IMG/VR virus record: IMGVR_UViG_3300037041_000892
Coordinates: 1-22,806 of that record
Direction: 5' to 3' (one strand)
DNA from: a virus
Length of the DNA stretch: 22,806 nt
Shown: one piece after another, positions 5,126 through 22,667 of the stretch
Layout: every line of letters begins with the position of its first letter
Numbering within the stretch: position 1 is the first letter of the stretch
The notes under the pieces: generated by a model
Databases searched by the model: none
What the model was told of the DNA's origin: nothing
Seen by the model: only the letters and a program-made list of their open reading frames with translations
Position numbers and translations under genes: made by a program

Positions 5126-5989
5126 TCATCTGATGCCAGTCCTGCCCTTCTCCTTAGCAGCATCATACTGCTCTTTGGACACAGGCCACAACTGATGGCG
5201 GCAATTGTAGCCGCCTCGGTAAATAAAGATTGTGCTGCTGTTAGTTCCTGCCATCCTTCCTTGCCAGCCTTTGAGATTGGGCCATGCCTTTACCTCATCG
5301 GTAGTGAAGTATCTGCCTGCTCTTGATACGCAGAATGGCCTTGAGTCTGCAATCAGTGTGCCTTGGTAATAATAATACTCTACATCCAAGTCCTCAGCAA
5401 TAGTCTGAATGTACTCGGCATTGAATGTCATCACTGAATCATTGGTTGTCTGCTTAATGTAGCGGTTAAGGAATGGCGCATCTTGTGGGCTTCCTTCAAT
5501 AAACTTGCGCAATGTCTTGTTAAGCTCCGAGCGTGAGCCAACGCCTGCGATGTTGTCCTTGAGTACCTCCTGAATTGCTGTGCCAAAGTTCTCACGAATG
5601 CCTGCACCTAGTAGCGCATCCTTTGTAGTGGCTATGTTAGCCTCAAGGATTGCCTCATAGAGTGCCTTCTTTGGTTTGAAATCACCTATGGCAATCGTAA
5701 TGTACTCATTGCTAAGTTCAGCCAGCATCTCAAAACCCTTAATGACCTCAGCAACCTGAAGCTGATATGGAGCATTCGTAATGATGGTGTTGGCAATGTC
5801 CTTCTTGAGTTTTATCAGTTCCTTGAGTGACTTTGCCCTGTCCTTAGGGTCTAAGGATAAATCAGAGGCCAAGTCAATCACCTGGTCAGATAGCTTGGCA
5901 AACACTCTCGGCAATGCCTCATCCATCCGGCTCTCTATTGCCAGCTGTAATTCCTGAATCTGCTTGATTAACTCAGTAGGTGTTGCCAT
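5126..5989 (-). CDS. MuF-like phage minor head / head morphogenesis protein
   Basis: The 287-residue product has a helical N-terminal two thirds and a C-terminal module typical of phage minor head proteins: DSRPFC at residues 215-220, then a W-rich linker and RGGYNCRHQLWPV at residues 258-270. The paired Cys/His pattern of this module is characteristic of MuF-related proteins found next to portals. They are virion components of the head, often thought to be injected or to help assembly. The gene starts on the base following the portal stop, a standard portal-MuF pair. What is missing is the usual scaffold, protease and major capsid set behind it. The next - strand genes are two small basic proteins and lysis genes. 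Confidence 0.75.
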   Translation of the reverse strand: MATPTELIKQIQELQLAIESRMDEALPRVFAKLSDQVIDLASDLSLDPKDRAKSLKELIKLKKDIANTIITNAPYQLQVAEVIKGFEMLAELSNEYITIAIGDFKPKKALYEAILEANIATTKDALLGAGIRENFGTAIQEVLKDNIAGVGSRSELNKTLRKFIEGSPQDAPFLNRYIKQTTNDSVMTFNAEYIQTIAEDLDVEYYYYQGTLIADSRPFCVSRAGRYFTTDEVKAWPNLKGWQGRMAGTNSSTIFIYRGGYNCRHQLWPVSKEQYDAAKEKGRTGIR

Positions 5990-7795
5990 TTATAGGCCTT
6001 CAGGCATTATTGGCACTAATCCAATCCTAATCTGAGCCTGCTTCTCAGCAGCCATTGTATAGAGTTCTGCCCTCTGCACATTGAATGGTTTATCATACCA
6101 TGTCGCATCCTCTTCCACTTTCTGAGTGATAAATCCTGCGAGGTTGGCACTTAGGATGTAGTCTAATTGTGAGCAGCCATTGCTTGCCAACAGCACTGTC
6201 TTTTCATCTGTGCTTTTGAATGGCAAAGGATCAAGACTACTCAAGAGCTTAAGGTATGTCTTCTGGATGCTATTCTCGCCATAGAGCTTCTCAACATAAT
6301 CCATTTCAATCCCTGATGTAATCAATGGATTGAATTTGCTTTCAACTGCCTTTTTGAGCTGCTCAGCTACCATGTCAGAGGTTAGAACATCGTAGTCGGT
6401 AGGTACAGTGATTTGAGGAAGTGCTGCCTGTATCTTATCGCTGTCCATCAAGGAAGATGCAAAAAGTGCATTATACCTCTGGAGCATGATGTAGAAACAG
6501 ACCTTGCGATACACTTGAGCCAGGTGAACGGTCACCGAGAAGCAGAAGGTGTTTAGCTCCTTCCGGTCATACTCCTTTGCTATCCCTGACTGAGCTGCTG
6601 GGATTTGGCCGAGCAACTCAAGGCCAATGGCTTTGAATCCCTGAAACTCCTTCTGAAGGATGTCCTCCTGGAATAGCTTAACTGTCTCCACAGGCCTCTC
6701 AATATAGCCTGCCGGAGGCACTGGCGGCACAAGGGGATTTGGATTAACAGCACTCACCCGGTCGATATTGATTTCCATCAGGCCGAAAGGTGATGAACTT
6801 GCCCTGCCTGAGCCTGAGCAATCGTTGCAGCTCACTCGCTCATCTTTTCTGTTTGTCCTTATCCCTGTGCCATTGCAGGTCTTACATGGAGACATCTTCA
6901 ATGCCCACTTCTGGGGAAGTGCATGCATTGCCCAAAGTATATTCAGGTCATCAGTCCTGAATAGCACTTCATTCCATGAGGGCAGACAAGGGGCTAGGAC
7001 TGAGTCATAGACTAGCTTTCCATCTTCCTCTTCATAGATGATGTTGCCTACTTTACATGCTGGCAGGTAGTTAAATTGGTAAGGCAGAATAAATACCTGA
7101 AAGGGCTGGTCATAGGTGTATTGATTGACCTGCCTGAAGAGCATTAGGCCTTCTGTGGTGATGCAGAGGAACTGATCCCACTTCTTGCGATTCATGTCCA
7201 CATAGTCCTCTACCTTAGTTATTACGAAGCTCTCATCCTCCCAGATTAGGTCTTCGCTCTCTATTATCTGAGGGTAAGGCCTTGACCAATCTAGCGTAGT
7301 TACTGCTGATGGGTCTTTAATAAATTCCTCAAAGTCAGGTACTGTAATTACAACGGCATTACTGTCTTTCAGATAGGTCTTGAGAAACACATTGAAAAGC
7401 CATGTCTCAAGACTGCCAGTCTTAGGTAGTTCCTCGGTGACATAGTGCTTCAAAGTGTTATTCTGAAGGCCAATGCGCTCGGCTATGCCTGTCTTTTGGA
7501 AGTCAGACTCAAAGGTTATTTTAAAGTCATCAGCCTGCTGAATCTTTTGCAGGAAAGTGTAAACTCTGCCTGTGGCAGTTGTGGTAGGTGCTTGCCACCG
7601 CTTCTTGCGGTAGTCTTTCATCCATGGCTCTTCCGATGGATGTTGGCTATTGAGGAGTCTTTCGGGATACTCATTCTCGAAATGATACTCAAGCTCTTCA
7701 GCTTTTTCTCTGGCCTCCTCAATATAGTCGTGCCTGCCCTCACGGATTTTCCGGTCTAGCAATTTCGATAGTAGTACCCCGATTAACTCTTCCAT
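5990..7795 (-). CDS. putative portal protein with internal DnaJ-like zinc finger
   Basis: The 601-residue product lies directly upstream of MuF and has the features of Bacteroidota-phage portal-like proteins: a helical N-terminus (KLLDRKIREGRHDY), a mixed region with KTYLKDSNAVVITVP, a conserved-looking SEDLIWED segment, and a helical C-terminal part. The name is inferred from context and length (portals are usually 400-700 residues); I cannot confirm the fold. Unusually, residues 304-330 carry CKTCNGTG and CNDCSGSG, two CxxCxGxG repeats as in the DnaJ zinc-binding domain, split by a short basic linker. A proline-rich patch (NPNPLVPPVPPAGY) follows. The insert could bind zinc and stabilise the ring or contact a partner. 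It starts 14 bases after the tail-tube-like gene stop. Confidence 0.65.
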   Translation of the reverse strand: MEELIGVLLSKLLDRKIREGRHDYIEEAREKAEELEYHFENEYPERLLNSQHPSEEPWMKDYRKKRWQAPTTTATGRVYTFLQKIQQADDFKITFESDFQKTGIAERIGLQNNTLKHYVTEELPKTGSLETWLFNVFLKTYLKDSNAVVITVPDFEEFIKDPSAVTTLDWSRPYPQIIESEDLIWEDESFVITKVEDYVDMNRKKWDQFLCITTEGLMLFRQVNQYTYDQPFQVFILPYQFNYLPACKVGNIIYEEEDGKLVYDSVLAPCLPSWNEVLFRTDDLNILWAMHALPQKWALKMSPCKTCNGTGIRTNRKDERVSCNDCSGSGRASSSPFGLMEINIDRVSAVNPNPLVPPVPPAGYIERPVETVKLFQEDILQKEFQGFKAIGLELLGQIPAAQSGIAKEYDRKELNTFCFSVTVHLAQVYRKVCFYIMLQRYNALFASSLMDSDKIQAALPQITVPTDYDVLTSDMVAEQLKKAVESKFNPLITSGIEMDYVEKLYGENSIQKTYLKLLSSLDPLPFKSTDEKTVLLASNGCSQLDYILSANLAGFITQKVEEDATWYDKPFNVQRAELYTMAAEKQAQIRIGLVPIMPEGL

Positions 7796-12590: not shown

Positions 12591-14914
12591 TAGTTCAAAT
12601 ATGTTGCAGTTAGAATTGATGCAGTAATAGAATTGTCAGGGTCTGCGTTTACCCAATCTGCTTGCAAATCAATTGCAAGTGTTCCTGTAGTGTTGATTGA
12701 TGCAGATGTACTGCTTACCTGAAAAAAGTTATTTAAATTAGTTCCACTATGATTTAACCTTCCCAAACCAATAAACTGAAGTGTCCCAGATGCTCCTGCG
12801 GTTCTGCAAGTCAATGTAAACTCTGCATCATAATAAACGGTTGTCAAACTTCCAGTGTGGGTAAATGTTATTGTTCCAACTGCTACACCACCAATGGTCA
12901 ATTTTAAAGCACAAGTCTCAGAACCTATATCTTGATTATAAGTTCCCGATACAAACACCTTAATTGTCTTACCTACTCCAAAGAAATTAGCAGGGAGTGT
13001 TGTTACTCCGGTAACTGTTCCGATTAAGGTAGTTGAAGTTCCAGTATTGGCAACAGTAACTGTTGATGTCTGAGCAAATATTCCTAAAGCAGTAAGGTCT
13101 GCCGACTTAGTTAAACTGCCACTCGTATCGGAGATAACAACTCCAAATGCAGAACCAACTGCTAAATCTGGATTTCTATCAAGTGTCAGAATCTTAGTAT
13201 AAGCACTATCCTTACGCATTGTAAGGCTTGTGTTGCTACTTGTGGTATCACACCAGATTGATCCATTGGTTGTGCCTGATGGTGTAACTCCAGATGAAGG
13301 CGCAAGGATTACTGATGGATTGGCAGCAACAGGAGCAGCAAGGTCAAGTCTGGCCGCAGGAGAGGCAACCCCAATGCCTAACCTGTCATTGGTAGTGTCA
13401 TAGTTTAGATTACTATCCTGATTTAGTACCTGATTAGCACCTGATGTAGTTGTGAGCAATAACCTTCCGGCAGTTGCACCACTTATAATTGTTGTGCCTA
13501 ATGCTAAACTTCCCGAAGATCCTGGATAAATTGGAATATTTAATACCCCGGCAGACAAGGTTGCTGCACCACTTGTTCCTGTGGTTGTAAGAGAAATTTC
13601 CTCAACTGCCCCAGTCGATGCAGTTGTTCTTCCAAGTAATCTGGAGGTTGCCATTGTAAGGCCAGAACCAGTTACTGCTCCAGGCGCAACAAAATCAGTT
13701 CCGGCAGTAGCATTAGTGATACTTGTTGCACCACTAAATTTAGCCATTTGATTATTAGTTGGAGAGCCAGTAGTTGTAACCGTGCCAGTACCACTTGGAG
13801 TTGCCCATTGGTTATCACCTCTTAAGAATGTAGTTGCAGATGGTGTGCCTGTTGCCGATAACATTGGAATATCAACTGCTCCATTTGCAATTGTAGCAGC
13901 AACAGAACCAGGGCCAGAGGCAGTTACATCACCAGTAAGGGCAGTAATGCCTCCTCCTGTTCCACTTGATGCAGTTGTAACTCTTCCGGTAGCATCTACC
14001 TGAATGTTAGCATTAGTATATGTTCCTGCCGGACTTGGAGATAATGATTTTAGGTTTATCACTCCAGATGCTGCCTGAAAGTCTGTGGTGGCAAATGTTG
14101 CCGCACCTTTGGTAACCCCATCGGCAGCAGCATCCTGAATCCCAATTGTGCCTGTTGCGGTAATTGGGCCTCCGGTTAATGGTGATGATGTGGCAACACT
14201 TGTAACAGTTCCAGTTCCACCAGTATATTGAGGAATGTTAAGTGTTGCCCCAGTTAATGTTGCAGGGCCACTTGATCCAGATGTGGTCAATGTCAATCCA
14301 TCCTGCTTTCCATTGAATGTTGTCCAATCTGCGCTATCCAGGAAGCCATCTGTTGAGCCATTAGCTTGAGGAATGCTAATATCAGGAGCATTGCCCGGTG
14401 TTGCACTCAATGGTGCAGATGCAGTTACGGCAGTAACTGTACCAACAGGCAATCCTGTACCGGGAAAGTAGCCTATGAGCCTCCATGCTCCTGAACCCTC
14501 AGAGATGAGCATTACACAATCTCCTGCGGCAGTGACTATGTTAGCCGCACCAGGGATTATCAGTGTTGTGGCATTATAGACAATTGTTACCGGTATGTCA
14601 AAGCACAGCACAAAGCGTGACCCGGCAGGCAATGTGCCAAAGGATGTTATGCTAATTGAGCCTGAGCCTGTAACATGGACAAAGTTGCCTCCGGCTAGTG
14701 CTAGGTTGGTTGTGCCTGATGTGGCAGTGATGGCACTGCCTCGGCACTCGTAAAAGGCATTCTGAAATTCACTTGTGTCCTTCTGAGTCACAAATGATTC
14801 AATGCCATTGGTTATCCAATCTCTTAGGTCAGCAGGAGTGATGAGCTGACTGGTGTTGTCGGGGAAGAACCCTAATGAATCTGTACTTAGTTGCGCTCTG
14901 GTTCTATTCGCCAT
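12590..14914 (-). CDS. tail fibre-like protein (774 aa)
   Basis: The start MANRTRAQLSTDSLGFFPDN with LITPADLRDWI looks like a tail-attachment domain. From residue about 160 to 470 there are irregular Thr/Gly/Ser-rich units such as TGTVTSVATSSPLTGG and GPITATGTIGI, as in shaft regions of trimeric fibres. Further along, TNDRLGIGVASPAARLDL is a motif seen in fibre/endosialidase-type stalks. The C-terminal 150 residues form a beta-rich tip with strands like TSTTLIGTVTGVTTLPANF. No intramolecular chaperone signature is obvious. The start overlaps the upstream tail gene by 11 bases. Composition shifts from about 50 to about 37 percent GC towards the C-terminus, which suggests domain exchange behind a conserved N-terminus. 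Confidence 0.75.
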   Translation of the reverse strand: MANRTRAQLSTDSLGFFPDNTSQLITPADLRDWITNGIESFVTQKDTSEFQNAFYECRGSAITATSGTTNLALAGGNFVHVTGSGSISITSFGTLPAGSRFVLCFDIPVTIVYNATTLIIPGAANIVTAAGDCVMLISEGSGAWRLIGYFPGTGLPVGTVTAVTASAPLSATPGNAPDISIPQANGSTDGFLDSADWTTFNGKQDGLTLTTSGSSGPATLTGATLNIPQYTGGTGTVTSVATSSPLTGGPITATGTIGIQDAAADGVTKGAATFATTDFQAASGVINLKSLSPSPAGTYTNANIQVDATGRVTTASSGTGGGITALTGDVTASGPGSVAATIANGAVDIPMLSATGTPSATTFLRGDNQWATPSGTGTVTTTGSPTNNQMAKFSGATSITNATAGTDFVAPGAVTGSGLTMATSRLLGRTTASTGAVEEISLTTTGTSGAATLSAGVLNIPIYPGSSGSLALGTTIISGATAGRLLLTTTSGANQVLNQDSNLNYDTTNDRLGIGVASPAARLDLAAPVAANPSVILAPSSGVTPSGTTNGSIWCDTTSSNTSLTMRKDSAYTKILTLDRNPDLAVGSAFGVVISDTSGSLTKSADLTALGIFAQTSTVTVANTGTSTTLIGTVTGVTTLPANFFGVGKTIKVFVSGTYNQDIGSETCALKLTIGGVAVGTITFTHTGSLTTVYYDAEFTLTCRTAGASGTLQFIGLGRLNHSGTNLNNFFQVSSTSASINTTGTLAIDLQADWVNADPDNSITASILTATYLN

Positions 14915-17282
14915 TGTCGAAGCCTGTGCTGAATCCGTCTGTAAATGCTCCTCCTATGCCTGATGCAGTTGCTGCCATCAGTAGGCTGAACTTAGTTGTA
15001 CCACCGGAAGCATCTTCTGGCTGATTGGTGGCCTCGGTTATGAACCCTTGCACATCCAGACTGCCTGAAGTGAGCCTAACTTTCCGATACTGCTCATCTT
15101 GGCTCAAAGTTAAGAAATCGCAGAGACTTTGAGGGTAGCTAAACTCAATGCCAATCGGCTTGAATAGATACTCCTTATAGGCCGTGTTGAGGATGTCGGC
15201 ATAGATGTCTGAGTTCTCAGCTATCTGTCCATTGATTATCTCAATGCAGGCCTCCTTCTCTTCATCTCCGTTAATTGTACTTGAATAGGAAGTCTGATAT
15301 TGCCCTACCTGATATCGCAGCCTTGGGTTTGTTGTTCCATATGTGTGCATGCCTAGCACCTTCCACCACCGGCAGGCAATACGAGCTGGAGTATGGTAGA
15401 TGTTGTATAGCGCATTGATTGGAGAATTGCTGGCAGTTATGCGGTCAGAACTCATAGATACAGTACCAGCAGGCAAAGCAACAAGACCACTTTCATCAGG
15501 AATCGCATATTCAGAATCCTCAATATTCTCAATGTTAAGTTCAAATCTATTCAGCCAAATGATAAATAGGTTGTAATCATTAGGCCTGTCTGAAGATGAT
15601 GAATCATCCCTAAAAAATTGCAATCGCCTACTAAACTCAATTGCATAACCTTCAGCAATAATCTCACTTCTAAGGTCTAGCTTTTGAGTGTTGTTCTCAT
15701 TCAATGCCTTATTCCCAACAAAGTAACTTCTGCTAGTATGTATGGCAAAAGTTCCGGACTGAGCAATATTTTTCCAGTTATCATTAAAGCCAACTAATAT
15801 ATTATTGGCTAATAGTTCAGGCTTAGCCATCTGCATAACCTCGCCAATATTATCAAATGTCTGGCTGATGCTATCCTGGTAGAAGTACTCCCTCGGCTCT
15901 ACTCTTATGTTCCATTCTGTTCCAGTCCATTCAAATGCCCAGCCGAGGCAGAATATTTTGTCAAGGTTGTCAAATAAGTCTTTCCAGGATAACTCAATCG
16001 CAAATTGATTAGAAGCATTCTCATCATTGGGGCATCCGTAAAATATATCATCAATTGTAGGTGCATTCCTGATTCTTACACCATTAGTTATTGCATTGTT
16101 CCAATAACATCCATCGTTAGCCTCTGAGAAAGCATCAGATAGTAACTTATTATTAGCTCCGGTGAGCTTGTAAATTGTTCTGTTTAATATATTCTCAATT
16201 TTTAGAACCTCTGCAAAGCTGGCAAACTCTCCTGAGCTAATCTCGCTCAGCGTAACACATACATTCTCAATGAACAGTTCAAAAAAGTAAGGGCCGCCAA
16301 AAAAAACACCTCCAATTGGGTCTTCCCTTTTCATCGTTCCGCCTACTCCCCACCATGCTGATAGTATTAACTTCCAATCTGGAGGCACAGGAATAGAGAA
16401 CTGATTGTTTAAATTAAATAATGAAAGAAGTGTTGATTGGGTAATAACCTCGCTACTGCCAATGGTGTAGAATGTTTGCGCCCCAGCAGGGCTTTGAAGA
16501 ATCACAAAAAAATCAGCATTTGCGCTTTCAGATGTAATAGAAACTGTGCTAAATTGTTGCTCTCCAGAAACAGTTGCCTGAATATTTATTGTCCTTGTCT
16601 GGGTGCTGTTATTCTTAAAAATAACATTATTATCACCCCAATTTGATCCTTGTGTGTCAAAGGTTGAGCCAAAATTATTTTTAAAATCACTATTGCGCCA
16701 ATAGCAGGGAATAATTTTAGCATATTTAGGATAAACCCAATCCCAAGGAGCTACAACATCATTTGTGTCATATTCAAGACCTAATATTGCGGTTGATAAA
16801 TTGCCACCTTGTGCAGTAATATAAGTGTCCTGTTTATGTAGCCTAATGAAGTCAGGCGAAAGTGGATCAATAGCATTACCATCTAAATCAAATGGAGTAG
16901 TAATATCAATTTCCACATCCTGCCGAGCCTTGAATTGCTCACGGAAATTGTCATCAATAATGCCTACCGTTACCTCCCAGCTATCAGTGTCACAGACATT
17001 ATGCTCTTGGTAGATGCTGAGGTTAAGCATGCCTTCGAACTCAAAGTTCTGCCCAGAGTAGCCAACATCCGAGGTAATCTTAATTGCTATCTCAGCATTG
17101 ATAAAGTAGAGGTCATAGAGGTCTTTGATGAGCCTTGCGCCCTTGCCATAGAAGCGCACCTCAGTGCTGAATGGTTGGTCAATGCCATGACTCTCCATGC
17201 GGAGAGCAGTGAACTCAATCGCATCCCAGCCTATTGGCTCTTCAACCTCATCGTTGTTTAAGTAAAATCTCCAGCCTGCCAT
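14904..17282 (-). CDS. putative distal tail / baseplate protein (792 aa)
   Basis: The first - strand gene after the tape measure. The product starts MAGWRFYLNNDEVEEPIGWDA and contains RFYGKGARLIKDLYDLYF and EFEGMLNLSIYQ, beta-rich segments as in Dit/Tal-like tail tip proteins, but I cannot name a family. It has no transmembrane helix. The ATG at 17282 follows a terminator (17300-17328) and a TAnnTTTG box, so it may start a new transcript. Composition is mosaic: sampled lines between about 15.5 and 16.9 kb have 32-37 percent GC, while both ends have 43-55 percent, so the central part (roughly residues 130-590) seems to have been replaced, as in tail proteins that contact the host. Confidence 0.65.
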   Translation of the reverse strand: MAGWRFYLNNDEVEEPIGWDAIEFTALRMESHGIDQPFSTEVRFYGKGARLIKDLYDLYFINAEIAIKITSDVGYSGQNFEFEGMLNLSIYQEHNVCDTDSWEVTVGIIDDNFREQFKARQDVEIDITTPFDLDGNAIDPLSPDFIRLHKQDTYITAQGGNLSTAILGLEYDTNDVVAPWDWVYPKYAKIIPCYWRNSDFKNNFGSTFDTQGSNWGDNNVIFKNNSTQTRTINIQATVSGEQQFSTVSITSESANADFFVILQSPAGAQTFYTIGSSEVITQSTLLSLFNLNNQFSIPVPPDWKLILSAWWGVGGTMKREDPIGGVFFGGPYFFELFIENVCVTLSEISSGEFASFAEVLKIENILNRTIYKLTGANNKLLSDAFSEANDGCYWNNAITNGVRIRNAPTIDDIFYGCPNDENASNQFAIELSWKDLFDNLDKIFCLGWAFEWTGTEWNIRVEPREYFYQDSISQTFDNIGEVMQMAKPELLANNILVGFNDNWKNIAQSGTFAIHTSRSYFVGNKALNENNTQKLDLRSEIIAEGYAIEFSRRLQFFRDDSSSSDRPNDYNLFIIWLNRFELNIENIEDSEYAIPDESGLVALPAGTVSMSSDRITASNSPINALYNIYHTPARIACRWWKVLGMHTYGTTNPRLRYQVGQYQTSYSSTINGDEEKEACIEIINGQIAENSDIYADILNTAYKEYLFKPIGIEFSYPQSLCDFLTLSQDEQYRKVRLTSGSLDVQGFITEATNQPEDASGGTTKFSLLMAATASGIGGAFTDGFSTGFDNGE

Positions 17283-17357: not shown

Positions 17358-19781
17358 CTAAGATGAGTTTCTGAATCTGTTGTTGAGTATTTTAGTTGTG
17401 CGCCTAGGCGTTCTGATGAACTTCTCAAAGCCACGCTCATCCATGTTGAGCTGAGTGATGGGCAATGACTTTAGGATGCTGCTTAGTTCATCCAACTTGC
17501 CTACCACCGGAGAAGATCCTGAGCTGCTCTTGTTGGCATAATGTCCTGCCAGGAATAGCTCCTGCCTGCTCAGGGCATGGTTAGGAATAACCTGCGAGCC
17601 TTTGGGCAGATCAACCAGAGTGGCAGTGGCAGGAGTGAAGTAAACTTTGCCCGATTCAGTCACAACTTTCTCAACTCCTCGCTCACCGACTATTGCTCGG
17701 CCTCCTTCAAATGGCTTGCCTTTTGTACCCTCTGCGAACTCAGGCACAGGCTGGGCAGCAATAAAGCCAATCTGCACAGCTTGATTAGCCAAGGTAAGCG
17801 CAGCAAGTGGCAATGTCACCGGATTTGATGCCCATTTAGCAACTATGGAGGCAGTCTCAAATATAACTCTGGCAATAGCAGCAGCCTGCTCTGCTTTCCA
17901 TGCCTTTGTCTTTAGCTCACGCTCCTTCTGTGCCTTACGCTGATTGATTTCATCAATCTTCTGCTGATTCCCATCTGCCAGCCTGATTTCCTCATCTGCT
18001 CGCTTATTTAACAATGAAATCTCTCTGTCAATATTGGCTGTGTAGAGATTGGTAAAGCCATTGGTAAGAGTTGCGGCTAATTCAATAGTTGCCTGAATCC
18101 TTCTTTGCTTTTCATCCTCAGCCTCCTTGCGCTTTTTAGCCTCATCATCCAGACCTTGCTCGTAGGCTTTCTGCCACTTCTTCATCTCTGCCAGCCTCTT
18201 ATCATAGAGGTTTTTATCCTCCTCTAGAATCTTGACATTGGCCTCCTTTCGAATTATTAACTGCCTGTTTGCACCAGTCTCAAATTCCTTTGTTGCTACC
18301 TGAACCTGAAGTTTAGTGACATCAAGCTCCTCCTTGACAAACAAAGCACCGTATCTGCGTTGGAGGTTTAGTTTAGCCTCTAGGAATGCCTTTTCAGCTC
18401 CAAGTCTGGCAAGTGGATCATTGCGAAGTTCACCTTCCAGAATGCGCATCTGCTTGAGCAGCTCAAGAATATTAAGCCTCTGCTCATACTCAGCCTTTAA
18501 TACTTTTGGGTCAATCGGCTGAGGTAATGTTGGCGCATTGGCAACTACTCCAACAATCTTAGTGTATTGCTCCTCCATTGCCTGAAGTATCTTTAACTCA
18601 TTCTCCTGCTTGGTGAGGTTCATCTGAAGCCTGCTGTTCATTGTGCCAGCAGCAGCAATGCGAGCCTCAGATACTTTCTGCATCTGCGCATCAATCCTTG
18701 CCTCAAATGTCAATAGCTGATTTCTGGCAATCTGCCTTCTGATGCCTTCCAGATTGGCAGCAGTAATTCTGATTTGATTCTGCTGGTCTAATTTAATGGT
18801 CTCTTTGGTAAGCTCAGTCTCAATGCGCTTCTGAGCCACTGCCTCGGCATTGAACTTAGCCTGCCTTTCTGCTGCCGTTGTTCCTCCTGCTTTGGAAAGC
18901 TCGGTGGCTATGCCTGCGGCTAAGTCATAAGCACCTTTCAGGAATGGATTTAGCTTATTACCTATGGCAAGGATTAACTGGTCAATGGATGAATTAAACC
19001 TATTCTGAGAGGCAGCAAGTGAGGTAACCTGCTCATTCCCCTTGCCAAATGTGTTTTCTAGTTCGGTGGCAAACTTTGGCAGGAAGTCAGCAGCAAGCAC
19101 TTGGCCTTTCTGAAGCATCTTATTCAGCTCGCCTGTGGTTACACCCATAGCTTTGGCAGCTATGCCGAATGCACCGACAAGTCGCTCACCAAGCTGGCCT
19201 CTGAGTTCTTCAGCCTGAACATTGCCTTTGGACATCATTTGTCCAAGTGCCAGGAATGCGCCTTTGGTGTCCTCGGCACTCAGGCCCATCACTTGCGCAG
19301 CCTTAGCAACTGCTGCGAATTGCCTGTTGGTCTCCTGACTTGTCTGCCCGGCTAGGTTGGCAGCAGAGGCAAAGGTCTTATATCCTTCCACTGCGCCTCT
19401 AAGGTCTAGGCCTAGCTTCTGTGCTGTCTGCCTGATGAACTCAAAGTTCTTATTGCCCATCTCGGCAGAGCCGGAGGCAAAGTCAATGGCTTTCTTCATT
19501 GACTCAAACTTTATCGTTGTCTCAAGAACAGCAGCAGCAAATTGCTTTATCTGACTGACAGCAAAAAGGCCACCAAGCACTCCACCAACCTTGCCAGCAA
19601 TGCTGCCAAGTTCGCCCATTGACTTATTGGTATTGTTGCTCTCCTGATTGAACTTCTTGAGTTCAGCCAATGCCTGCTTTTCCTCTGTTGATAGCTTGTC
19701 AAAGGCCTGAGCAGCCGCATCTATGTTGGATGTCTCAACAACATACCTAATCTTGATGTCATTGTTACTAAGTGTTGCCAT
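17358..19781 (-). CDS. tail tape measure protein (807 aa)
   Basis: Residues about 45-250 form a tape-measure domain: VLETTIKFESMKKAIDFASG, then FIRQTAQKLGLDLRGAVEGYKTFASAA, QVMGLSAEDTKGAFLALGQMMSKG and QAEELRGQLGERLVGAFGIAAKAMG. Long coiled coils follow (about 300-610, rich in E, K, Q, A), then a hydrophobic segment and a Gly-rich C-terminal part (FAEGTKGKPFEGGRAIVGERG) usual in tape measures. The protein sets tail length and enters the tail lumen. With the usual 0.15 nm per residue the tail would be about 120 nm, so a sipho- or myovirus. The gene is flanked by intrinsic terminators on both sides and has a TAnnTTTG box four bases before its ATG. The preceding gene carries a frameshift signal, the standard place for one. 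Confidence 0.9.
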   Translation of the reverse strand: MATLSNNDIKIRYVVETSNIDAAAQAFDKLSTEEKQALAELKKFNQESNNTNKSMGELGSIAGKVGGVLGGLFAVSQIKQFAAAVLETTIKFESMKKAIDFASGSAEMGNKNFEFIRQTAQKLGLDLRGAVEGYKTFASAANLAGQTSQETNRQFAAVAKAAQVMGLSAEDTKGAFLALGQMMSKGNVQAEELRGQLGERLVGAFGIAAKAMGVTTGELNKMLQKGQVLAADFLPKFATELENTFGKGNEQVTSLAASQNRFNSSIDQLILAIGNKLNPFLKGAYDLAAGIATELSKAGGTTAAERQAKFNAEAVAQKRIETELTKETIKLDQQNQIRITAANLEGIRRQIARNQLLTFEARIDAQMQKVSEARIAAAGTMNSRLQMNLTKQENELKILQAMEEQYTKIVGVVANAPTLPQPIDPKVLKAEYEQRLNILELLKQMRILEGELRNDPLARLGAEKAFLEAKLNLQRRYGALFVKEELDVTKLQVQVATKEFETGANRQLIIRKEANVKILEEDKNLYDKRLAEMKKWQKAYEQGLDDEAKKRKEAEDEKQRRIQATIELAATLTNGFTNLYTANIDREISLLNKRADEEIRLADGNQQKIDEINQRKAQKERELKTKAWKAEQAAAIARVIFETASIVAKWASNPVTLPLAALTLANQAVQIGFIAAQPVPEFAEGTKGKPFEGGRAIVGERGVEKVVTESGKVYFTPATATLVDLPKGSQVIPNHALSRQELFLAGHYANKSSSGSSPVVGKLDELSSILKSLPITQLNMDERGFEKFIRTPRRTTKILNNRFRNSS

Positions 19782-19785
19782 GCCT

Positions 19786-19793
19786 CAAAGATA
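19786..19793 (-). promoter_or_regulatory. TAnnTTTG box (TATCTTTG) before the tape measure gene
   Basis: An exact match to the Bacteroidota -7 element ends four bases before the ATG at 19781, directly behind the terminator at 19801-19829. No -33 TTTG is seen. The spacing to the ATG equals that at 17282. Confidence 0.4.
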
Positions 19794-19800
19794 GGCAATA

Positions 19801-19829
19801 AAAAAGCCACCGAATATCAGTGGCCTTTT
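19801..19829 (-). terminator. intrinsic terminator between the frameshift gene and tape measure
   Basis: On the - strand GCCAC-(9-base loop)-GTGGC is followed by TTTTTTATT. AAAAG/CTTTT extends the stem with one bulged G. It lies 20 bases downstream of the stop of the -1 frame (19849-19851) and 70 bases downstream of the 0-frame stop (19899), so it fits the end of the longer product better. T-runs on both sides could let it act in both directions. Confidence 0.6.
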
Positions 19830-19848: not shown

Positions 19849-20136
19849 CTATCCCTTACCCTTTCTGTTCTTCTGGGCAGCAATATAGCTGCTCACGATT
19901 AAATAGTATTCGTAGATTGGCCTTTCGACCAGGAATTTAAGTCTGATAGGATCGCCACTTGCGACTCTAAACTGCTCATCAAATCTGAGTCTGTGCTGTC
20001 TGACAATTGAAGTCCAATAATGTGTTTCAGGTTGTTTAGGCTTTGTAGAGTTTCTGCCTGCAAATAGTTCGGGAAATTCGTGCTGTATTCGGTCAAAGAG
20101 GGCAGATAAGCGTACTCGGGCAGATTCAAAAAAAAA
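19849..20136 (-). other. -1 frame extension of the gene before the tape measure (programmed frameshift or homopolymer error)
   Basis: At 20128-20136 the - strand has nine T in a row (read as GGT TTT TTT TTG), a classical -1 slippery run. After one -1 slip the frame stays open for about 93 codons to TAG at 19849-19851, and the total product is 267 residues. The new C-terminus (ESARVRLSALFDRIQHEF, later FDEQFRVASGDPIRL, KFLVERPIYEYYLIVSSYI) is charged and protein-like. It has no NCG codon, as in the endolysin gene, while the 0 frame over the same bases has six NCG codons in 76. The -1 frame therefore looks like the coding one. Either ribosomes or RNA polymerase slip here, or one T is missing in the assembly. 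Confidence 0.75.
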
Positions 20137-20651
20137 CCCTGAACATCATTGTGCTTCATCCAATGCTCGAGCTTCTGCTTGTTGTATGGGTACTGGTAGT
20201 CTAGTGGATTCTCCTGTTCATCAAAGTAAACAACTGTTGCCAGCTTCAGCTGTCGCAGTAGGCTCACACTCATCTCCATCTGCTCCTTGAGTCGGGAGGC
20301 CATGATGCCCACTTCATAGAGCTTCTTGTCATCCTTCTTCTTCTTGTCCATGAGAAGGTTTATTAGGCCATTGTTCCAGCCCCTGAGGAAGTCAGGATTA
20401 ATCTGCCATAGTTCCTCGGTAAAGATGTCACGAGCAGCCACTGCCCTCTGGAATGGCACATTGACTTCAGCTACAAACTTAAAGTAATTGATGCCTCCTG
20501 ATGTGAAGGCAAACTCAATCTGATCCCATCGGTCTTGTGGGGCTACTCCCCTGTAAAGTATTCGGCCACTTTCTGCTTGTAAAGGTGCTTCTTTTGCCAC
20601 TTGTTCAGCAGCAGCAGGAGCAGATGATTTGCGCCTAAAAATATTGAGCAT
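19899..20651 (-). CDS. gene before tape measure, putative tail assembly chaperone (250 aa in 0 frame; 267 aa via -1 frameshift)
   Basis: The product starts MLNIFRRKSSAPAAAEQV and continues with ILYRGVAPQDRWDQIEFAFT and NVPFQRAVAARDIFTEELW. No family is recognised. Residues 1-174 are common to both forms. In the 0 frame the last 76 residues (Ser/Leu/Asn-rich, ending GQSTNTI) look like a shadow frame, and the -1 frame carries the convincing C-terminus. Position just upstream of the tape measure plus a T9 slippery tract recalls the G/GT tail assembly chaperones of many tailed phages, although here the two products differ only slightly in length. The start ATG lies inside the upstream membrane protein gene (109-base overlap), where both frames avoid NCG codons, so both seem real. 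Confidence 0.65.
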   Translation of the reverse strand: MLNIFRRKSSAPAAAEQVAKEAPLQAESGRILYRGVAPQDRWDQIEFAFTSGGINYFKFVAEVNVPFQRAVAARDIFTEELWQINPDFLRGWNNGLINLLMDKKKKDDKKLYEVGIMASRLKEQMEMSVSLLRQLKLATVVYFDEQENPLDYQYPYNKQKLEHWMKHNDVQGFFLNLPEYAYLPSLTEYSTNFPNYLQAETLQSLNNLKHIIGLQLSDSTDSDLMSSLESQVAILSDLNSWSKGQSTNTI

Positions 20652-20938
20652 AGATAGAATGGATAGTCAAACATTAGCCAGGAGATGACAAGGAATTGCC
20701 AAGCCCCTGAACAGAAAGGGCATTCACCTAGAGGCTTCGCCCAATGTGTCGGTAACTTCTGAATCTGGGAGAGATACCACTGCCCAGCTGGGTGATCCTC
20801 CAAAAGGTAGTCCAGAAAAAGCGAGAAGGATGCGCTGAGTGCGCTGATGAGCAACAACTTCAGTAGGCTCGCTATCGTGTGGAAGCTCAATGAGGCAGCA
20901 ACCTCTGCGCTTGCCTCCGCAACTTGCATCAAAATCAT
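20543..20938 (-). CDS. membrane protein with CPFC motif (131 aa)
   Basis: The product has a hydrophobic segment at residues about 22-46 (SLLKLLLISALSASFSLF) and a second long one at 82-115 (FLVISWLMFDYPFYL and LLLLLL), with GECPFCSGAW between (Cys73, Cys76) after KPLG. The C-terminus is basic (NKWQKKHLYKQK). Small phage membrane proteins with a CPxC-x-G-xW motif behind the first helix are known as hypothetical proteins; from memory the layout resembles DUF1360-type proteins. It starts six bases after the previous stop and overlaps the next gene by 109 bases in a different frame. Function unknown. A competing frame at 20724-20948 has an ATGA junction but no protein-like content. Confidence 0.65.
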   Translation of the reverse strand: MILMQVAEASAEVAASLSFHTIASLLKLLLISALSASFSLFLDYLLEDHPAGQWYLSQIQKLPTHWAKPLGECPFCSGAWQFLVISWLMFDYPFYLCSIFLGANHLLLLLLNKWQKKHLYKQKVAEYFTGE

Positions 20939-20944
20939 AGTTTA

Positions 20945-21352
20945 TCATGGGTAAAGGATTGGCTGATTATCGTTGAAAATATTAAGGGCTACCCAGTTGT
21001 CCTCCTGGTTAGTGTAGGTCTGGGAGAAGCTCATGCAGATGTCTGTGTACTCTTTGCCATCACCGGCTGTGAATGTCACAGGCTGCAATGTAGCACTATT
21101 TGTGAAGCTCACAGTGTACTGCCCTCCCCAAGGATTAAGGAAGGCCTCAGGCATTGCCTCAAGGTCAGCCTCAATAAAGCCATCTAGGTCAATTGCGAGC
21201 AGTTGCTGGATGCGTACATTCACTCCGGGTTTGGTGATGTTAAGCAGAATCTCGGCCTCGGTGTAATCGGTTGGCACTTGCACATAAAAAGCGGTCGGGC
21301 AAGCATTGAGAGGCTCGCAGACTTTAAAACAATCATTGCAGCATTGTGCCAT
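20945..21352 (-). CDS. Cys-rich hypothetical phage protein (135 aa)
   Basis: The product begins MAQCCNDCFKVCEPLNACP, five cysteines in 18 residues followed by a beta-rich domain (FYVQVPTDYTEAEILLNIT; QYTVSFTNSATLQPVTFTAG). The remaining part is acidic and has the look of a small structural protein. Comparable proteins with a Cys-rich N-terminus follow the terminase in some Bacteroidota phages (recall only). The start overlaps the large terminase gene by 20 bases in another frame, indicating co-translation. It might bind a metal or form disulfides in the virion. No family name can be given. Confidence 0.65.
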   Translation of the reverse strand: MAQCCNDCFKVCEPLNACPTAFYVQVPTDYTEAEILLNITKPGVNVRIQQLLAIDLDGFIEADLEAMPEAFLNPWGGQYTVSFTNSATLQPVTFTAGDGKEYTDICMSFSQTYTNQEDNWVALNIFNDNQPILYP

Positions 21353-22667
21353 ACTTTTCCAGATTAAAGTTGCTCGTTATCTCTGCAAAGTTAGAGAATA
21401 TAAAGTAACGGAAAGCATCCAATGCGTGAGACTTGTCCGGGTTCTTGTTCTTCCAGGCATCCAAGCTGCCCTGCCTGTCTACCTTAGCCTCCTTCAGGTC
21501 AGTGATTAGCTCATCACACCTTTTGCTGCTGATTTGCACCTTTGCCTTTTGAAGGGTCAGGATGGTGACCAACCTGCTGGCAATGTGGCTCGGATTGCTT
21601 CGAGCAATCTGCAATTGCATGTCTGGGATGCCGAGATAGTTCTTGATGAGGGCATATGCTGATATGTTGTCCTGAGTGAAGGCATTGCGAGAAGCACCGG
21701 AGGCATCACCGTTGATGATGTAGGTCATATCGGGGAACTCTTGCCGGATGGTCTGGCAAAGGGCCGCTAAATCACCTATGCGATAGACCTTGATGATGTT
21801 GATTGTCGCATAGAAGATGCCATCCTCTGAGTTCTTGATGTATTGGCCTACTACGCAAGTGTTGGTAACATTGAAGTCAAAGGATAGGTAAAGGTTATGC
21901 ACCGGAGAGGCCTTGATGTAGCCATCGTACACATGCTTGCTGTACTCGAAGCTGGTGGCAAAGAGCGACTCCCTATCCCAGACTCCCCATTGCCCTAGGG
22001 CATACACTTCGTAATAGGTCTGGCTCACTGAGCGCAGTGCCTCCATCCTTGTGACATACTCATCATCCAAGAAGTTGAGCGCATCACGGTAAGTACCGTG
22101 CAGCCGAAGGATCTGATTCTGTTCTTTGGCTGGCACATCATCAAAAAACCGCTTCTTAATCCAGTGGCTATCTGATACAGGATTGAATGTCAGAAAGAAT
22201 CGCTTTGGTGTGTCTGACTTACCCCTGAGTCGCAGGGTGATTTGGGTGAAGTCCTCAAGGCTCAATTCGGTGGCTTCCTCAATCCAGATGTACTTAGCCT
22301 GGCTAAGTGACTTTAGCTTTTCAGGATCATCACAGCCAAGAAAGACAATCTTGTTAGTGCCAGACTGAAGCTCCAAGTAGCTGGTCTTTGCCTTAACCAG
22401 CTTCTCAAATCCCCACTGGCTTATCTTGTTTCTGAAGTCAGCAAAGACCGAGTTCCTCAGAGTGCTGGCCACCTTGCGGATGACAAAGTAAGTCTGGAAT
22501 TGGTTGGCCTTATGGTTGCATATCTCAGCCAGCAGTAGCTGAATCATTGTCTGACTTTTGCCAGATCCTGCTCCGCCCCATAGGATGTTGTATGTCTTTG
22601 GCTCAACCAAAGCAGGCAAGTACTTCTGACTCCATAGGTCAGGTGATGACAAGTCAATGAGTGCCAT
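21333..22667 (-). CDS. terL: terminase large subunit (ATPase-nuclease)
   Basis: The 444-residue protein shows the full set of motifs. Walker A is GGAGSGKS at residues 31-38; Walker B with catalytic Glu is KYIWIEEA at 125-132; the coupling motif is FFLTFNPVSDSHW at about 157-169. The nuclease acidic residues are Asp264 (LSFDFN), Asp321 (INGDASG) and Asp417 (SHALDAFR). The ATPase pumps DNA through the portal into the capsid and the C-terminal RNase H-like nuclease cuts the concatemer. The length is normal for the family. The ATG shares one base with the stop of the small subunit (TGATG). It is the first complete gene of the late unit in this window. Confidence 0.93.
   Translation of the reverse strand: MALIDLSSPDLWSQKYLPALVEPKTYNILWGGAGSGKSQTMIQLLLAEICNHKANQFQTYFVIRKVASTLRNSVFADFRNKISQWGFEKLVKAKTSYLELQSGTNKIVFLGCDDPEKLKSLSQAKYIWIEEATELSLEDFTQITLRLRGKSDTPKRFFLTFNPVSDSHWIKKRFFDDVPAKEQNQILRLHGTYRDALNFLDDEYVTRMEALRSVSQTYYEVYALGQWGVWDRESLFATSFEYSKHVYDGYIKASPVHNLYLSFDFNVTNTCVVGQYIKNSEDGIFYATINIIKVYRIGDLAALCQTIRQEFPDMTYIINGDASGASRNAFTQDNISAYALIKNYLGIPDMQLQIARSNPSHIASRLVTILTLQKAKVQISSKRCDELITDLKEAKVDRQGSLDAWKNKNPDKSHALDAFRYFIFSNFAEITSNFNLEKYGTMLQ

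Follow-up and report, generated by a model that had tools for sequence, protein, structure and literature searches.

A candidate programmed -1 ribosomal frameshift with two selected C-termini in the gene before the tape measure gene of uncultured tailed phages

Described tail gene frameshifts and the layout of the locus

Frameshifts in tail assembly chaperone genes are widespread, and the usual frameshift switch of phages only adds a domain to one of the two products. Chaperones of the G/GT type are encoded between the major tail protein gene and the tape measure gene; both of their products, made in a fixed ratio, are needed for tail assembly and are absent from virions. Xu, Hendrix and Duda reportedly described these frameshifts as a conserved family in 2004, and to our knowledge the unshifted product of the described cases stops near the slip site. 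The hallmark of a programmed -1 ribosomal frameshift is an X XXY YYZ heptamer in the 0-frame phase, and a stimulatory structure downstream of the slip site is common, not obligatory.

The gene analyzed here resembles lambda G/GT in its -1 shift, its position directly before the tape measure gene, its shared N-terminus and a second frame that encodes an extra domain. However, the lambda shift lies near the 3' end of G and the unshifted product simply ends (reviewed in PMC5009743), whereas the unshifted product of the present gene continues for 67-85 selected codons, and no sequence homology between the two was detectable. With the E/E+E' genes of P2 and of the P2-like phage Smp131 it has in common a T-run slip site, a -1 shift and a location in a tail gene operon. 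The slip sites T6G, T7G and T7C are given for these phages (T6G for P2 and T7G for Smp131) in PMC3931495, which cites Christie et al. 2002, and the second frame of P2 extends only 37 nt back into E; in the present gene, by contrast, both frames are used and conserved over about 230 nt, and homology was again not detected. Potyvirus P3N-PIPO, made by polymerase slippage, and influenza PA-X likewise have a common N-terminus and a second possible C-terminus that an overlapping, conserved frame encodes (PMC5009743), but these belong to RNA viruses of eukaryotes and use other shift mechanisms, whereas ours is a DNA phage gene in a tail-assembly position with two tails of similar length. No description of a long dual-coding swap in phage tail genes was found in the open-access literature searched; we regard this swap as the new element, T-run slip sites being already known in this role.

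The window, that is, the whole stretch of DNA analyzed, covers the 22,806 bases of an IMG/VR virus record; the record may be fragmentary. The features that concern the frameshift gene are listed below.

20543..20938, minus strand: upstream small gene, 131 aa, with a weak likeness to DUF1360; overlaps the frameshift gene
20130..20651, minus strand: N-terminal part that both products share, 174 aa, conserved across relatives
20126..20138, minus strand: slippery site GGTTTTTTTTTGA, with T9 at 20128-20136
19849..20130, minus strand: -1-frame C-terminal tail, 93 aa (19852-20130; TAG stop at 19849-19851), homologous across relatives
19899..20129, minus strand: 0-frame C-terminal tail, 76 aa (19902-20129; stop at 19899-19901), under purifying selection
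19902..20129, minus strand: dual-coding stretch, both frames constrained in the substitution test
17358..19781, minus strand: tape measure gene (tail length), PHROG tape measure match with E 2e-62

The 0-frame ORF (20651-19899) encodes 250 aa, consisting of the 174 shared residues and the 76-aa tail, and the -1-shifted product would have 267 aa (174 shared and 93), which is 17 aa longer. On the minus strand the tract reads GGT TTT TTT TTG at 20138-20127, with the nine Ts at 20136-20128, and the next codon is AAT. An earlier note on this DNA, made from its letters alone, had given these positions, a -1 frame that stays open after the tract, like the 0 frame, and ends at 19849-19851, and the difference of 17 residues, all of which we confirmed. 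Its count of NCG codons was also exact, with six in the 0-frame tail and none in the -1 tail; there are none in the shared N-terminal part either.

The frameshift gene starts with ATG in 74 of the 79 main-clade loci examined, and its start overlaps the upstream 131-aa gene by exactly 109 nt in 72 of 74 main-clade loci. This overlap (20543-20651 in the window, minus strand) is likewise dual-coding by the substitution test described below (dSN/dSS 0.12), and with both overlaps added, two reading frames are in use over about 40% of the frameshift gene. A terminase gene lies upstream of the frameshift gene in 81/81 relatives, and in the window two small genes lie upstream of it as well. The portal-like gene of the window (5126-7795, minus strand) is located about 13 kb downstream of the terminase gene (21333-22667, minus strand), past the tail genes, which is an unusual order. 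Searches of the window with PHROGs recognised no capsid gene and no tail tube or major tail protein gene, and no Rfam or tRNA features were found in it.

In the gap between the frameshift gene and the tape measure gene there is a terminator-like hairpin with a T-run (19800-19825, minus strand), followed by TATCTTTG at 19786-19793 (minus strand), five bases before the tape measure ATG, which resembles the -7 promoter element of Bacteroidota. This element, together with a distant similarity of the tape measure protein to those of Leeuwenhoekiella and Polaribacter phages, hints at a host among the Bacteroidota. A search of GTDB genomes with the N-terminal part and the terminase as queries confirmed no host, and among named phages there was no near relative of the frameshift gene, only distant matches to the terminase and the tape measure protein.

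The slippery site and its conservation

We collected relatives of the gene by scanning IMG/VR viral contigs, which yielded 118 distinct sequences usable around the tract; these are metagenomic assemblies from many separate metagenomes and are mutually non-independent. The tract is GG-T9-GA in 113 of them. The remaining five keep GAT TTT TTT, two as T9-A (GAT TTT TTT TTA) and three as T7-A (GAT TTT TTT ATT); the latter (L309, L311 and L316) come from three metagenomes and retain both frames. Thus, NNT TTT TTT in the 0-frame phase, which is the U UUU UUU heptamer, is common to 118/118 relatives. The phenylalanine codons of the slip site are TTT in 224/224 cases, with no TTC at either position, while elsewhere in the N-terminal part 57% of the phenylalanine codons are TTC and 43% are TTT. 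Judged from these counts, the conservation of the slip site exceeds chance. Other sense-strand runs of at least eight Ts in the relatives form two offset clusters, one after the frameshift gene and one after the tape measure gene. The window also has a second sense-strand run, T8 at 16299-16306 (minus strand), within a large structural gene (14904-17282), whose ORF continues through it.

The -1 tail is homologous in all intact relatives (90-102 aa, 36-90% identity) and carries the conserved motif LVERP[IV]YEYYL. We considered an independent start of the -1 part and rejected it, since no ATG, GTG or TTG occurs before codon 66 in 109 of 113 relatives; having no start codon of its own, the -1 tail would be reachable only by a shift. 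These results suggest that the frameshift is almost certainly programmed.

Homopolymer tracts are error prone, so that a T missing by sequencing or assembly error from what is really one continuous gene has to be considered. In one relative (L004, 426-1250), a one-base difference indeed puts both parts in one frame. However, this locus looks chimeric, with the N-terminal part of one lineage and a C-terminal part that matches, at 99% identity, that of L221, a locus of normal layout, and we rejected it as evidence for a fused gene, the difference being probably an artefact of assembly or recombination. Moreover, about 117 distinct contigs, drawn from many metagenomes, share the layout of the window, and selection acts on the 0-frame tail (see below), leaving the missing base a negligible probability. 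In a further exception, L327, an indel immediately ahead of the tract, itself still T9, disrupts the reading frame; neither L004 nor L327 changes the conclusion. The programmed shift that the earlier note proposed is thus borne out by the alignment of relatives that it had asked for, in which about 117 members retain both the tract and the -1 C-terminus, the -1 part having no start of its own.

Two tails read from the same bases

In the relatives, the 0 frame remains open past the tract for 67-85 codons (76 in 90 loci, and 67, 78, 82 or 85 in nearly all others), and no intact locus reaching that far has a 0-frame stop within 67 codons. Given the -1 protein and the codon use of the family, the 0 frame would stay open by chance in 2-26% of simulations. 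Because openness alone is therefore too weak as proof of coding, we used a substitution test, in which substitutions were counted on a tree and sorted by their effects in both frames. For the 0 frame, dSN/dSS, which sets the rate of -1-silent changes that alter the 0-frame protein against the rate of changes silent in both frames, was 0.089 (95% bootstrap, 0.053-0.138), and the controls gave 1.07 (single-coding N-terminal region, with an identical relative frame) and 0.88 (third frame of the overlap). A repetition on 108 diverse sequences gave 0.122, and the result held in thirds of the overlap and in both clades (main, 0.073; divergent, 0.242). The -1 frame was equally constrained in the overlap (dNS/dSS 0.12, 0.071-0.189), and its wobble positions had a heterozygosity of 0.13 within the overlap, as against 0.49 just beyond the 0-frame stop.

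The chance openness just mentioned would suit a gene in which function is confined to the -1 tail while the 0-frame tail is passive, held by constraint on the -1 protein or at the RNA level, and so would the NCG codons of the 0-frame tail, with which it looks overprinted. Yet among changes silent in the -1 frame, 111 were also silent in the 0 frame against 9 expected, an excess of about 12-fold that was absent in the control, and the changes nonsynonymous in the -1 frame were skewed to 0-frame-silent ones too (NN/NS 0.38). A constraint at the nucleotide level would not track 0-frame codon positions, and the lack of 0-frame stops within 67 codons speaks in the same direction. We therefore consider a passive 0-frame tail very improbable; the approximately 230 bases are almost certainly truly dual-coding, with both C-termini selected, as far as substitution patterns can tell.

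The 0-frame tail has few charged residues and is rich in Ser, Thr, Asn and Gln, and its NCG codons are absent from the other parts of the gene; this composition, too, gives it the look of an overprinted segment. Structure models were made for the two parts separately, not for the fused product, and are of moderate confidence. The AlphaFold2 model of the 0-frame tail has two predicted helices, spanning 186-214 and 222-243 in the numbering of the 250-aa product (mean pLDDT 66), and the model of the -1 tail has three (mean pLDDT 72).

Since both frames are under purifying selection, the shift would swap one selected C-terminus for another, as the earlier note had suspected in preference to an added domain. 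Its statement that the true C-terminus lies in the -1 frame was half right: that end is conserved, but so is the 0-frame C-terminus, whose conservation in homologues it had taken to count against a shift. The two are conserved together, which indicates that both ends are real.

Mechanism of the shift and role of the gene

Taken together, these observations lead us to read the locus, with a probability of about 0.77, as follows: in a family of uncultured tailed phages, the gene in the place of the tail assembly chaperone carries a programmed -1 ribosomal frameshift, and both of its tails are selected. Alternatively, RNA polymerase may slip on T9 to give T10 (and T8) mRNAs, of which the T10 form would be translated into the -1 product and the T8 form into a short product of 174 aa ending at a TGA after the tract. 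Bacterial transcriptional slippage has been described for runs of nine (PMC5009743), the length found here, and the +1 frame stops directly after the tract in all loci examined. This immediate stop, however, is a by-product of the Glu/Asp codon that is conserved in the -1 frame. In addition, three relatives from three metagenomes have only T7-A (L309, L311 and L316) and have lost the run of nine Ts, yet keep both frames, so that the phase of the heptamer is conserved and the run length is not. Slippage by polymerase is thus unlikely as the main mechanism, although T9 could still add some of it in most members. The survival of the site with only T7 favours -1 slippage of the ribosome at U UUU UUU, which we consider quite probable; of the two mechanisms that the earlier note had offered, it is the ribosomal one that fits better, transcriptional slippage less so.

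No stimulatory RNA structure was found in the window itself (z +0.6), and none was found to be shared among the relatives. Some lineages, those with the shortened tract among them, have a strong hairpin that starts 6 nt past the first heptamer (z -3.8 in L304 and z -3.6 in L309). In L289, L297, L304 and L309 it is a near-perfect hairpin of 9-10 bp, CUCCCGGAG/CUCUGGGAG, placed 6 nt past the first U UUU UUU and absent in the window, and it is possibly a lineage-specific frameshift stimulator.

The tape measure gene lies downstream of the frameshift gene in 104/104 relatives with enough sequence to be tested, which makes a role as a G/GT-like tail assembly chaperone probable on position and logic, not homology. 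As in G/GT, the gene is immediately upstream of the tape measure gene and a conserved -1 slip site leads into a second frame without a start of its own. A short unshifted product is not found, the 0 frame continuing for its 67-85 selected codons, nor does the shift bring a whole-domain gain, the shifted product in the window being longer by only 17 aa. With part models of moderate confidence, searches of PHROG, Pfam, PDB and BFVD matched the gene to no known tail assembly chaperone, either in sequence or in fold. The G/GT placement in the earlier note therefore holds for position and logic and not for homology to known chaperones.

Most ribosomes would read GGT TTT TTT TTG in frame and produce the 250-aa protein with its 76-aa helical tail. 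A fraction would slip back one base on U UUU UUU, with the Phe tRNA re-pairing on UUU, and produce the 267-aa protein, which has the same 174 residues and a different 93-aa tail, so that one functional C-terminus would be exchanged for the other. We infer from the gene sequences that both products are expressed, and likewise their ratio; the -1 form is probably the minor one, because in E. coli U UUU UUU is weaker as a slip site than A AAA AAG (PMC5009743). If the roles are as in lambda G/GT, the more plentiful form would cover the tape measure protein, and the scarcer -1 form would bring in the tail tube. It seems rather likely that one slip site chooses between two long, overlapping and individually selected C-termini, the 0-frame tail being overprinted with a binding job of its own. 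If this is true, the frameshift acts like alternative splicing of the chaperone tail, not like a domain-adding extension.

An ORF listing with ordinary start codons reveals only one of the two products of such a gene. With its many relatives and slip sites reduced to T7, this natural system would suit tests of how phages set the ratio of their chaperones, and also the study of the origin of overprinted protein segments. Selection on both frames over about 230 bases past the slip site, throughout a family, would mean that the unshifted product, too, can carry a functional tail of its own.
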